Shown piece by piece: positions 3,169-32,130 of a stretch of DNA of 32,130 nucleotides. A program made the position numbers and the translations under genes. The DNA is from Actinomycetes bacterium (GTDB lineage: Bacteria; Actinomycetota; Thermoleophilia; Gaiellales; F1-60-MAGs149). The notes below the pieces were generated by a model, which had not been told where the DNA came from, did not search any database, and was given only the letters and a program-made list of their open reading frames with translations. The stretch is taken from assembly GCA_025360225.1 (NCBI GenBank), contig JANYCN010000022.1, forward strand, positions 1 through 32,130, given 5' to 3'. How positions within the stretch are numbered: position 1 is the stretch's first letter; the number at the start of each line of letters is the position of its first letter.

Positions 3169-3723
3169 TCAGCCCCGGATCGCCACCTCGCCGTCCGGAG
3201 CCGGGCCAAGACGACAACCCCGCTGGTAGGCCTGCACTGGAGTCGTGAATCCCGGAGCGAAGGGAGAACGATCGCCGATAGACACCCAGTCTGTCGAGAC
3301 GTCGCCGGGACAAAGCCACGTGACCACAGACCACACGTTGGCCGCATCCAGGCGCCGCAGATCGACTACGTACCATGAGAACGATTGACCTGAAACGGAG
3401 AAGGGCGATGCCAGCCGAAGTCTATCGGCCACGCGATACCACCACTCGACAGCGGCCGCGTCGGGAACGTCAGCTCCGACCCTAAGCTCAATGCTGCAGA
3501 CCACGTCGGTCTTTCGCACTGCCGGGGACACCTCGTCCGGGACCCTCCAACCGCATCCAGACGAGACGTTGGAGCTCTGGCTCGGGAAGGGCGCCGTCAC
3601 GGAGAGAACGATCGCCCGCGGCGCCGGGGTAGGGTCGGCGCAGGACGCTCCGAATACCGCCACCGCCACCGTTGCGAACGCGTAGGTGAGAAGCGATTTG
3701 CGCGACGCTAGTCGTACCACCAA
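3169..3723 (-). CDS. predicted secreted or lipoprotein, possible cassette partner
   Basis: About 184 aa. The N-terminus is a signal sequence: basic MVVRLASRK, hydrophobic core LLTYAFATVAVAVFG, then GASC, an imperfect lipobox. The mature part carries several Cys (SSGCGW, DVVCSI, TWLCPG, QRGCRL) and aromatic-rich stretches, consistent with an exported disulfide protein. The start is TTG 3723 or GTG 3720, with AGAAGG a few bases upstream. The start region overlaps the end of the preceding RHS-tail frame (stop at 3708) by up to 16 nt, so the two are translationally coupled. From position it could be an envelope-anchored immunity protein for that tail; that is inference. I recognise no named family. 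Confidence 0.55.
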   Translation of the reverse strand: MVVRLASRKSLLTYAFATVAVAVFGASCADPTPAPRAIVLSVTAPFPSQSSNVSSGCGWRVPDEVSPAVRKTDVVCSIELRVGADVPDAAAVEWWYRVADRLRLASPFSVSGQSFSWYVVDLRRLDAANVWSVVTWLCPGDVSTDWVSIGDRSPFAPGFTTPVQAYQRGCRLGPAPDGEVAIRG

Positions 3724-4149
3724 GATGGCACCTTCTTTCGATGTCCATTGTAGTGCGATCGACCGACAGCTCGAACGGCATTGAAATAGCTATTTGCAAT
3801 GATGTAGCACGAGGGTGGGAATCCCCAAATCGCGTCGGGCGACATAGTGCAATGGTCGGGACCGCCGCCGCCGTTTCGCATGCAACTGAACCCTGACCGA
3901 CGCGCACCCGCCGAGCAGCTTACAAGCTCCTTTTGCCCGGCAAAGTCGGTGCAGTTGCCGGGGTCGGCGGTGTAGCCGATCACCCGACCCATCGTATCAT
4001 ACGCCTGCGTGATCGTCGAGGACACGACGCCGGGGATGTACACGTCCGCGACCGTCACGACCCCACCGGCCTCAGGCCCGACGCCGCGTCGTAGTGACGC
4101 ACCGTGTCCGCGACCACGCCACCCACCGTCGTCCCGGTCGCGGCGGCTC
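3708..4149 (-). pseudogene. RHS YD-repeat fragment fused to RHS tail and a short C-terminal extension
   Basis: Reading leftward from 4149, one frame gives GGVVADTVRHYDAASGL. The next frame continues with VVTVADVYIPGVVSSTI and QAYDTMGRVIGYT, a canonical YD repeat, so a frameshift lies near 4060-4080. The YD repeat then runs straight into ADPGNCTDFAG, the motif that closes RHS cores (DPxNxxDxxG), without the core in between. A GCCGAC microhomology could explain that join. After the tail comes a ~75-aa Cys-rich extension (QKELVSCSAGARRSG through HRKKVPSWWYD), which I do not recognise. The piece is a decayed, recombined RHS tip module followed by the lipoprotein gene. Confidence 0.6.
3936..3968 (-). 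repeat. RHS tail junction copy 3
   Basis: 33-nt segment encoding ADPGNCTDFAG on the minus strand. It matches the segment at 4823-4855 closely at DNA level and the one at 5483-5515 more weakly. These repeats mark where successive C-terminal modules were joined. Confidence 0.6.
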
Positions 4150-4151
4150 AA

Positions 4152-4439
4152 TCACATCGCAAATGCATCGTCCTCATCTCTGGCCACACGATCCTGCCCA
4201 CACTCCCTGGCGATTACGTGCTGGCGCTCCGAACCTGCGCAGCGCCACACAACAAACGCCACGACTTGACCGAACGCCAGCGCCGCGACGACCCCACCAA
4301 CAGCGAATCTCGAGTACAGGCTCCGGCCGTCGAGAACCGTGAGCAAAACCGTCACCAGAACCAGGCGGAAACCGAGCCAAGCGCCGCACACACCGACCCG
4401 ACGGGCTCGCCAATCGAAGATGGACACGGGCGTCTTCAT
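4152..4439 (-). CDS. small membrane protein, candidate immunity partner 2
   Basis: About 95 aa from ATG 4439 (an in-frame ATG at 4454 would add five residues). It has two hydrophobic helices: WLGFRLVLVTVLLTVL (about 20-36) and VGGVVAALAFGQVVAFVVW (about 47-65). A short charged tail follows. Start and upstream stop are nearly fused: TGA of the preceding RHS-tail frame (4443-4441), one base, then ATG. This spacing implies coupled translation, the arrangement expected for a toxin and its immunity gene. No named family is recognisable, so the role is inferred from position only. Confidence 0.5.
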   Translation of the reverse strand: MKTPVSIFDWRARRVGVCGAWLGFRLVLVTVLLTVLDGRSLYSRFAVGGVVAALAFGQVVAFVVWRCAGSERQHVIARECGQDRVARDEDDAFAM

Positions 4440-4440
4440 C

Positions 4441-4867
4441 TCAGTGGCGTTCACCTTCGTACATCAGCGCCTCCGTCGCGACAACCCAGACACACCCGAC
4501 TAACGGGCTCAAGCGCTTCAGTAGAAGCTTGCCAGACGCCTGCTTCTCAGCATTACGCTTTTCAGCGATCCAGAGTTCGTTCAACCCCTTCGTCCCCTCG
4601 GTCATTGCCGCCTTCCTAATTTCGGCTGGGATCCCGAGCGGTCCGCCCATGAAACACCCGAAAGCCATCGAGCCGAGAAGCGAGGGCTTAGACACTTCCT
4701 TCAGGTACGCTCGATACCGCTTCGACTGTTTGTTAACACACGCTTCCCGATCAGAAGCACGGTGATACGTTGCCCAACACATGTTGTGAAAGGTGACATC
4801 TGGTTGGATGGAGATTACCGTGCCCGGAAAAGTCGGTGCAGTTAACGGGGTCAGCGCCACAAAAGTC
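4441..4867 (-). pseudogene. RHS tail junction plus C-terminal module 2, frameshifted
   Basis: Just after the stop of the upstream small gene, one minus-strand frame reads DDFCGADPVNCTDFSG, the RHS closing motif. One base later the frame must shift to continue as GTVISIQPDVTFHNMCW. The run TTTTCCGGGCACGG has one G too many for an uninterrupted reading. The ~125-aa module contains a Cys-containing basic segment (ACVNKQSKRYRAYLKE), a hydrophobic Gly-rich stretch (LLGSMAFGCFMGGPLGIP, about mid-module) and a second hydrophobic segment near the end (LSPLVGCVWVVATEAL). It has no start codon of its own near the junction, as expected for an orphan tip. Function unknown; membrane-active effector is a guess. 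Confidence 0.55.
4823..4855 (-). repeat. RHS tail junction copy 2
   Basis: 33-nt segment encoding ADPVNCTDFSG on the minus strand, close in sequence to the copy at 3936-3968. Confidence 0.6.
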
Positions 4868-4868
4868 G

Positions 4869-5087
4869 TCATGGGTGCTGGTCGTCGCTGGAACCGTCGT
4901 CCTCCCGCTTTGCGTCGCTGCGGTCGCCAAACATCAGCACCACGACTGGAAGGGTGGCGACCATGGCCCCGCCGAACACCCATCCCTGCTCGTACGACGT
5001 AAGCCGCTCGCCGAACACGACGTGCACGGCTGTGGGAACCGCCGCGCCAACAACAGCCGCCGCGAAAACGCCTCGAAGGATTCGCAC
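4869..5087 (-). CDS. small membrane protein, candidate immunity partner 1
   Basis: 72 aa, GTG start at 5087 sharing one base with the TAG stop of the upstream RHS tail frame (TAGTG), so translation is almost certainly coupled. It has a hydrophobic N-terminal helix (LRGVFAAAVVGAAVPTAVHVVF) and a second helix (WVFGGAMVATLPVVVLMF), then a charged tail rich in Asp/Arg ending DDQHP. Two helices and a charged tail suit an immunity protein against a membrane-active tip, but no family is recognised. Immediately downstream comes the second RHS tail junction. Confidence 0.5.
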   Translation of the reverse strand: MRILRGVFAAAVVGAAVPTAVHVVFGERLTSYEQGWVFGGAMVATLPVVVLMFGDRSDAKREDDGSSDDQHP

Positions 5088-5892
5088 TAGAAGATTACCC
5101 CATGAATACAGCCGCCAACACAGCCATCTACCGCGCCCGCGATGGCGCCGCCCAAGGCCCCGATCGGTACGGTGACCTCCGCAAACCGGCCACCCATGAC
5201 CCCGAGGGCAGCGTCACCGGCAGCGCTTGCTGGCGTGCCAATTACGACGCCAGGCGCCCCTTCCTTGAGACACTGTCGGAGAGTTACCGGTAGACCGCCG
5301 CCGCGTCCGACTCGTCGAACCGTGACGACGAGCCTGTTCAGGCCGCGCTCGAGTTGCCAGCAGACCTTGCGATCCCACACGTATCCAGCGCCGCGACCCA
5401 TCGCCCCGGTGGGGTGGGCGTGTTTCGTGACACGGACACGTCGGTACTGGTCGCCGCCTCCGCCTCCGGACACCAACGTCCGTCCATTCAGGTCAGTGCA
5501 GATCAAGGGGTCGGCACTGCGGTTATCGTACGCGGATGCGGAGCCGCCAACAAGGGGTCAACCTGCAGGAGGGGTCCGCTCTGCGCGTTGTACAACCGTT
5601 GGCCCATCAGGGTGATGCCGGTCGCCTGGTCTGACGGTCGGGTCTTTGCGCCGAGCCAGCCATAGCGTGGCCTGGTGGTGCCCGGCACTGGGATGCCGAA
5701 CACCGACGCATCGACCACGCTCGTGACGGCGCTCGTCGCAGCGGGAGTGGTCGCGACAACGTCGCCTTGGAGGTTCGTGAGCTGCACCACCGCCCCGGTC
5801 GCCGACTCGACCGCGACCAACGACCCGTCAACACCAGCGAGCGGCCGCGTCAAGGTCGACGCAGACCCGCTTGAAGCGAGAAGCAGCGTCAT
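5087..5892 (-). pseudogene. C-terminal end of an RHS/YD-repeat protein with C-terminal module 1, frameshifted
   Basis: From about 5892 down, the frame encodes a recognisable RHS core end: LAGVDGSLVAVESATG, VVQLTNLQGDVVATT, FGIP, RYGWLGAKTRPSD, GITLMGQRLYNAQSGPLLQVDPL. At about 5548-5556 the frame breaks. The expected continuation VGGSASAYDNRSADPLICTDLNG is in another frame, consistent with loss of one base. After the tail comes a ~130-aa module with basic aromatic residues, then a Gly-rich hydrophobic end (GAPGVVIGTPASAAGDAALG, IGALGGAIAGAVDGCVGGCI) resembling glycine-zipper pore formers. All N-terminal RHS repeats are missing; the truncation lies next to the inverted-repeat element at 6063. 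RHS proteins deliver C-terminal toxins; the activity here is inferred. Confidence 0.7.
5483..5515 (-). repeat. RHS tail junction copy 1
   Basis: 33-nt segment encoding ADPLICTDLNG on the minus strand. It is the most diverged of the three junction copies but is in the normal place, directly after an RHS core. Confidence 0.6.
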
Positions 5893-6062: not shown

Positions 6063-6380
6063 CTAGTGGTCTGATTGTCAAATGGCATGGTCATTGGGTG
6101 TCTGGAGCGAGCGGGAGCGTTGCGCGTCGCGCAGGGCTTGCTGATCGCGGGCGTGCTGGATAGCACGCCCGCTCGCACGCGTGTCAAGGCGAAGGCCTTG
6201 ACACGCTAAGTGCACGCGGCGCGCGACGTTCCCGCGAAGCCCACGATCCGGCACGCAGAGCGGGCCGGGACGCGGTCGCCGGAGCTGAGCGGCGCAGCCA
6301 CCCGACGGGTGGCAGAGCCGACAAGCGCAGGACGATCCAGGCAGTCGGATGACCACGCTATCTGACAATCAGACCACTAG
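6063..6380. mobile_element. TIR element copy A (MITE-like, ~318 bp)
   Basis: Bounded by CTAG at both ends. The left end CTAGTGGTCTGATTGTCA, extending to TGGTCAT, is repeated inverted at the right end (about 31 bp with a few mismatches). The interior has no conserved open frame but three hairpins: 6147-6172 (10-bp stem, TGGATA loop), 6181-6204 (perfect 10-bp stem GTGTCAAGGC, GAAG loop) and 6297-6313 (7-bp stem, GAC loop). A near-identical full copy lies at 28031-28347, with partial copies at 26936 and 31990. It encodes no transposase, so it would be mobilised in trans, if at all. Its right end supplies the TAG stop of pntB. Confidence 0.8.
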
Positions 6381-28030: not shown

Positions 28031-28347
28031 CTAGTGGTCTGATTGTCAAATGCATGGTCATTGGGTGTCTGGAGCGAGCGGGAGCGTTGCGCGTCGCGCA
28101 GGGCTTGCCGATCGCGGGCGTGCTGGATAGCACGCCCGCTCGCACGCGTGTCAAGGCGAAGGCCTTGACACGCTAAGTGCAAGCGGCGCGCGACGTTCCC
28201 GCGAAGCCCACGATCCGGCACGCACAGCGGGCCTGAACGTGGTCGCCGCAGCTGGCTGGCAGAGCCACCCGACGGGTGGCAGAGCCGGCAAGCGCAGGAC
28301 GATCCAGGCAGTCGCACGACCACGCCATCGCGCCATCAGACCACGAG
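28031..28347. mobile_element. TIR element copy C (full length)
   Basis: About 317 bp, nearly identical to copy A through the left TIR and the first two hairpins. Divergence is concentrated near 28225-28270 and at the right end (CACGACCACGCCATCGCGCCATCAGACCACGAG, so CTAG has become CGAG). A 1-base deletion after CAAAT relative to copy A breaks any shared frame, so the element is non-coding. Lies directly upstream of the winged-helix gene, where it must have replaced or displaced the native promoter. Confidence 0.8.
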
Positions 28348-31989: not shown

Positions 31990-32130
31990 CTAGTGGTCTG
32001 ATTGTGAAATGGCGTGGTCATCCGACTGCCTGGATCGTCCTGCGCTTGTCGGCTCTGCCACCCGTCGGGTGGCTGCGCCGCTCAGCTCCGGCGACCGCGT
32101 CCCGGCCCGCTCTGCGTGCCGGATCGTGGG
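31990..32130. mobile_element. TIR element copy D (inverted, cut by window end)
   Basis: Begins CTAGTGGTCTGATTGTGA and continues as the reverse complement of the right part of copy A, including the GCCACCCGTCGGGTGGC hairpin and TCCGGCGACCGCGTCCCGG. Nearly identical to copy A over 141 bases. The remainder is beyond the window. Confidence 0.8.

Follow-up and report, generated by a model that had tools for sequence, protein, structure and literature searches.

A frame-broken stack of probable orphan RHS tips and immunity genes in a high-GC actinobacterial genome

The main and orphan rhs genes of Salmonella LT2 have 522 bp in common at 95% identity, and recombination between them places the orphan tip onto the main gene (PMC3967940). 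In polymorphic toxins more generally, recombination at the 3′ end exchanges cassettes of tip and immunity gene, and the tip types described for them include Tox-PLA2 (PMC3482391). Here we analysed a window of 32,130 nucleotides, which is contig C47 of a 3.24-Mb actinobacterial genome (97% complete, 89 contigs). An island within it resembles the orphan rhs-CT/rhsI of Salmonella LT2 (STM0292; PMC3967940) in combining a short RHS fragment, a closing motif, a tip and a small linked gene with a fragmented reading frame. It differs from the Salmonella orphan in that no main rhs gene stands ahead of it on its contig, and in having three tips, more frame breaks and one disarmed tip. The carrier is also unlike an enterobacterium, being a high-GC organism in which one of the RHS proteins (on contig C88) starts, judged by eye only, with a Sec-signal-like stretch. 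As in polyimmunity loci (PMC3482391), several immunity-type genes follow one another on one strand with small gaps, but at the island tips lie between them, and true polyimmunity loci have none. We consider it probable (about 0.8) that the island is a degenerate stack of orphan RHS tips and immunity genes, the remains of an RHS polymorphic-toxin locus.

Read along the minus strand from 5892 to 3169, the island comprises an RHS core-end stump, closing motif 1, module 1 and partner 1; closing motif 2, module 2 and partner 2; and finally RHS debris, closing motif 3, module 3 and partner 3 (Table 1). A preliminary description of this DNA had reported three 33-nt segments encoding the RHS closing motif. 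These are present on the minus strand and are real rather than chance occurrences: a degenerate pattern that covers them matches the window exactly three times, whereas 100 shuffles gave no match (0.00 expected). As DNA the motifs form a 36-nt direct-repeat family, in which copies 2 and 3 are 89% identical and copy 1 reaches 64%, and the closings of the RHS genes on C88 carry the same pattern as the island motifs, motif 2 included. Each motif had also been described as leading into its own module. This is so for modules 1 and 3, which are in frame with their motifs, but the frame of motif 2 stops at 4754, and the body of module 2 lies in another frame that can be opened from an ATG at 4872. 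Directly behind each of the three tips stands a small gene, at -1, +1 and -16 nt, and hydropathy agrees with the original assignment of these genes as two membrane proteins of two helices each and one lipoprotein. GC3 in the modules and partners is 0.62-0.75 compared with 0.84-0.90 in the neighbouring genes, as would be expected for exchangeable tips. A codon-usage score trained on RHS and household genes from the same genome gives coding support, in one frame each, to the stump, partner 1, module 2, partner 2, the debris and partner 3; the module 3 tip scores weakly, and for module 1 the score is non-discriminating.

Table 1. Positions of the island features and the adjacent repeat element in the window.
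Feature	Position	Strand	Basis
MITE-like 318-bp element with 32-nt terminal inverted repeats, 5′ side of island	6063..6380	.	repeat analysis
RHS core-end stump, ~130 codons, ...RYGWLGAKTRPSDQATGITLMGQRLYNAQSGPLLQVDP	5503..5892	-	aligns to C88 and C76 core ends; codon usage 0.31 per codon (other frames <=0.02)
RHS closing motif 1, ADPLICTDLNG	5515-5483	-	pattern count, direct-repeat family; frame-shifted relative to stump
Module 1, tip with Gly-rich hydrophobic end	5087..5506	-	open frame; codon usage non-discriminating
Partner 1, 72 aa, two predicted membrane helices, GTG start in TAGTG	4869..5087	-	hydropathy, codon usage 0.31, junction
RHS closing motif 2, ADPVNCTDFSG, with ..DFCG before it	4855-4823	-	pattern count, direct-repeat family
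Module 2, ~125-residue tip body	4441..4872	-	codon usage 0.10 (-0.19 or lower in other frames)
Partner 2, 95 aa, two predicted membrane helices	4152..4439	-	hydropathy, codon usage, junction
RHS-repeat debris, two frames (HYDAASGL... / ...AYDTMGRVIGYT)	3969..4147	-	similarity to C14 debris; codon usage 0.81 per codon
RHS closing motif 3, ADPGNCTDFAG	3968-3936	-	pattern count, direct-repeat family
Module 3, prokaryotic phospholipase A2 tip remnant	3708..3968	-	collinear with C88 tip, ~52 residues missing
Partner 3, lipoprotein with lipobox-like FGASC, presumed PLA2-immunity protein	3169..3723	-	homology to C88 lipoprotein

The stump is the leftover of a formerly longer RHS gene and aligns to the core ends of the RHS genes on contigs C88 and C76 of the same genome. 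It is in a different frame from motif 1, the change falling at about 5555. Module 3 is preceded by debris rather than by a core end, and this debris, which resembles RHS debris on contig C14, is joined directly to motif 3. The RHS fragments at the island lack an export signal and most of the core. With the delivery part gone except for the stump, no RHS protein could now carry any of the three tips out of the cell. The frame breaks could in part be consensus errors of a draft assembly, and a stronger version of this argument would hold that all of them are, so that the stack is intact and functional and its in-frame orphan tips are ready for recombination, as in Salmonella. The frame change between the stump and module 1 does lie in a short run of C, a typical site of consensus error, the frames of the modules themselves remain open, and partner 1, module 2, partner 2 and partner 3 look coding. 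Against this, motif 2 is also out of frame, module 3 lies behind debris in two frames, the adjoining Lon-like and transhydrogenase-like frames are unbroken, and no single-base error explains the loss of about 52 residues, catalytic ones among them, from module 3. We therefore regard an intact stack as unlikely. The earlier proposal of displaced orphan RHS tips with immunity genes behind them is upheld in its core idea, in the form of a frame-disrupted stack and not of tips ready for use.

Contig C88 carries an intact RHS frame of 2,236 codons ending ...NADPVNCEDIAG and a phospholipase A2 (PLA2) tip of family PF09056; the RHS frame before the tip ends ...VDPVDGGSASAYDYCNADPVNCEDIAG. With a cut-off of 29.4, the tip scores 33.2 bits against PF09056 when scanned alone and 29.1 bits within the whole protein. 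It also matches PDB 4aup, a group XIII PLA2, with an E value of 2.9e-5 and the His-Asp segment aligned. The gene behind it, whose start lies in a TTGA overlap, encodes a lipoprotein. Module 3 aligns to this tip end to end but for a single gap, with ADPxNC.D.AG...D.CT..PD.I.GF ahead of the gap and C..IA..YF.AVRA.G...Y....R...P.WW behind it; the BLASTP E values are 5e-7 for the first part, motif included, and 5e-6 for a second alignment. With the motif removed, the module 3 tip still aligns to the C88 tip better than all of 2,000 shuffles do. At the gap about 52 residues are gone, including the catalytic CxxHD segment, GDYTDACMQHDLCYGF and what follows, with DACMQHDLCYGF among the deleted residues, and the deletion is in frame. 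Compared with Tox-PLA2/PF09056 (PMC3482391), the C88 tip is above the family cut-off and has the CxxHD segment. Module 3, though collinear with the C88 tip, is missing the catalytic segment and has no Pfam match, PF09056 included. Partner 3, in which a single N-terminal hydrophobic stretch is followed by a Cys and whose TTG start overlaps the end of module 3 by 16 nt, is homologous to the C88 lipoprotein (29% identity over 137 columns, E 8e-9, none of 2,000 shuffles as good). Collinearity, the deletion and the homology of the lipoproteins together identify module 3 as a disarmed PLA2 tip, and partner 3 as a member of its presumed immunity family. Judged by its sequence, then, module 3 is a catalytically dead remnant of a PLA2 tip, related to PF09056 and predicted not to be an active member of it. 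It would formerly have been aimed at the membrane phospholipids of a neighbouring cell and would have lost its catalytic segment, while the gene for its envelope-anchored lipoprotein immunity protein was retained.

One statement of the preliminary description changes in this light. The modules and partners had been called unassignable to any family, which still applies to modules 1 and 2 but not to module 3, now identified through C88 as a PLA2 tip; and the proposed search for an intact RHS protein with the same tip next to the same small gene succeeded for module 3, in its own genome, and returned no relatives of modules 1 and 2. These results link a family of lipoproteins that has no Pfam entry to PLA2 tips, as their probable immunity proteins. 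A weak Pfam match of partner 3 to DUF2759 fell below the cut-off and was rejected. A GTDB-wide pattern scan for the lipoprotein, which reaches only sequences sharing short exact peptides, returned nothing, plasmid searches gave no matches, and structure prediction for partner 3 was uninformative (AlphaFold, pLDDT 39). PF09056 occurs in 18 of 399 genomes of the class, and all copies in the subset with displayed frames are stand-alone, none being fused to RHS; the six-frame search behind this census missed even the C88 tip, so the census is incomplete.

Searches of Pfam, NCBIfam, the PDB, plasmids and about 800 sampled genomes brought up no relatives of module 1, module 2 or their partners. No further copies of either module turned up elsewhere in their own genome, and none of our searches returned a relative fused to an RHS core. 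Without homologues, their roles as toxin and immunity pairs rest on the closing motif and the layout. An alternative view accepts only module 3 and partner 3 as a true toxin/immunity pair and takes the other two modules, with their partners, for frames that are open by chance where GC-rich DNA separates the RHS scraps. Long open frames do arise commonly by chance at such GC content, and the failure to find homologues and the non-discriminating codon usage of module 1 both fit. However, partner 1, module 2 and partner 2 are coding in exactly one frame by codon usage, each module/partner pair has its own RHS closing motif ahead of it, and partners 1 and 2 each contain two hydrophobic helices. 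We judge chance frames to be slightly less probable again than an intact stack. Pore-forming effectors have membrane immunity proteins. By analogy, action on the membrane is probable for the tips of modules 1 and 2, and the two-helix partners would be their membrane immunity proteins, although this is a guess that we infer from the membrane nature of those partners. The suggestion that all three tips act on the membrane or envelope is accordingly backed by homology for module 3 only. We offer the two tip/partner pairs, which have no known family, for testing.

Several candidate relationships were set aside. A relationship between module 1 and the Gly-rich tip on C76 gave an alignment no better than shuffles, and Pfam matches of module 2 to ArdcN and of partner 1 to KdpA and GDT1 were weak and below cut-off. 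Weak class- and phylum-wide matches to module 1 and the lipoprotein, with E values from 4e-6 to 0.1, were put down to composition noise, because the best matches, which were inspected, lay on or beside unrelated genes or in out-of-frame GC-rich translations and had no RHS motif; one weak match, at E 3.5e-4, was outside the inspected set. For module 2, a GTDB-wide pattern scan, limited to sequences that share short exact peptides, found nothing, and the AlphaFold model (pLDDT 45) was uninformative.

Besides the island, RHS loci occur in the same genome on C34 (a frame of 2,213 codons), C88, C76 (a tail) and C14 (debris). In addition to its intact frame, C88 has a second RHS tail of 443 codons. 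A direct repeat of 1,028 bp at 90% identity (locus L012; 12504-13530 and 14504-15530, 2,000 bp apart) ends in both copies at the closing motif, and each copy leads into a different tip, that of the second beginning GVTCHEAQFDQYFARTHHF.... The corresponding homology of tail and main gene in Salmonella is 522 bp at 95% (PMC3967940). We take this arrangement as tip displacement in progress, of the kind seen with the Salmonella orphan rhs. No clear immunity gene was found behind the second C88 tip, and a 12-mer, CTGTCGTAGATG, recurs just behind it. By extension, repeated recombination at the conserved closing motif would have displaced older C-terminal tips of the island together with their immunity genes, and the delivery part of the RHS gene would have been lost except for its short stump. 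The island would then be a later stage than the displacement on C88, with only the motif and a few RHS scraps left. If it is active at all, its most likely present role would be that of a store of immunity genes and motif-flanked tips for recombination into an RHS gene. One genome would thus hold intermediate stages of the process: an intact RHS-PLA2 gene with its immunity-type lipoprotein, a tip displaced downstream of a repeat of about 1 kb, and a stack with broken frames whose PLA2 tip is disarmed. In this way the RHS tip displacement cycle, known from enterobacteria, appears to be at work in a distant high-GC lineage.

The spacing of the genes admits a further possibility, one that is compatible with the degenerate stack and adds present-day selection to it. 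All six junctions from the stump to partner 3 (TTGA, TAGTG, ATGA, TGA-G-ATG, TGA-TTG and the 16-nt overlap) fall within -16 to +1 nt. Module 1 can be opened from a TTG at 5506 that overlaps the stop of the stump (TTGA), and the ATG of module 2 at 4872 overlaps the stop of partner 1 (ATGA). The tips might have been disarmed or disconnected while the chain of stops and starts was kept under selection, with the three immunity genes translated serially as protection against neighbours in which these toxins persist. The in-frame deletion in module 3 would fit such a relay, the displaced second RHS tail on C88 likewise begins directly at the stop of the preceding lipoprotein gene (TAGATG), and orphan immunity genes are a familiar feature of Rhs systems (PMC10539506). 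On the other hand, chance places a start within this narrow range at 14-27% of comparable ORF ends, and three of the six junctions are the usual couplings of tip and immunity gene, at the distances given originally: TAGTG (module 1/partner 1), TGA-G-ATG (module 2/partner 2) and the 16-nt overlap (module 3/partner 3). Tips and immunity genes being coupled anyway, only the three other junctions carry weight, and at 14-27% each all three would occur by chance at roughly 0.3-2%, a figure for junctions chosen post hoc. A selected relay is thus a speculative and rather improbable addition. So too is its boldest form, in which a disarmed RHS tip array makes three envelope immunity proteins, two of them against undescribed families of membrane toxins.

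The loss of the RHS gene ahead of the stump may have involved a mobile element. About 170 bp upstream of the stump's ATG lies a MITE-like element whose terminal inverted repeats are 91% complementary and have CTAG ends. It recurs at 28031-28347 and 31990-32130 of the window, and about 40 places were scored among 308 candidates in the genome. Several copies lie exactly at contig ends, including the end of the window's own contig, and this high-copy element appears to break the assembly. We infer that it may have helped to remove the rest of the RHS gene.

The remaining RHS loci illustrate the variety of tips. On C76 (L013; 2702-5023) an RHS tail is followed by a Gly/Ala-rich hydrophobic tip and then by a small membrane-protein gene, probably another displaced pair of tip and immunity gene. 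On C14 (L083; 2972-4223), frame-broken RHS debris precedes an open frame without family assignment; this is another decayed RHS locus, resembling the debris before module 3. The RHS protein on C34 (L011; 3615-10253) has, by eye, a HINT-type autoprocessing-like stretch before its tip (CSANSFTARTLVTMADGS...VLVHNT), and a very long frame on C72 (L085) contains a similar stretch, CDANSFTATTLVSMADGS. Finally, a further genome from the same family (G003, contig C13, L069; 8192-8806) has an RHS end with a different tip (GGHYHPTRDGVRLKNRRGGNIHIKYPR...), showing that tips vary within the family.
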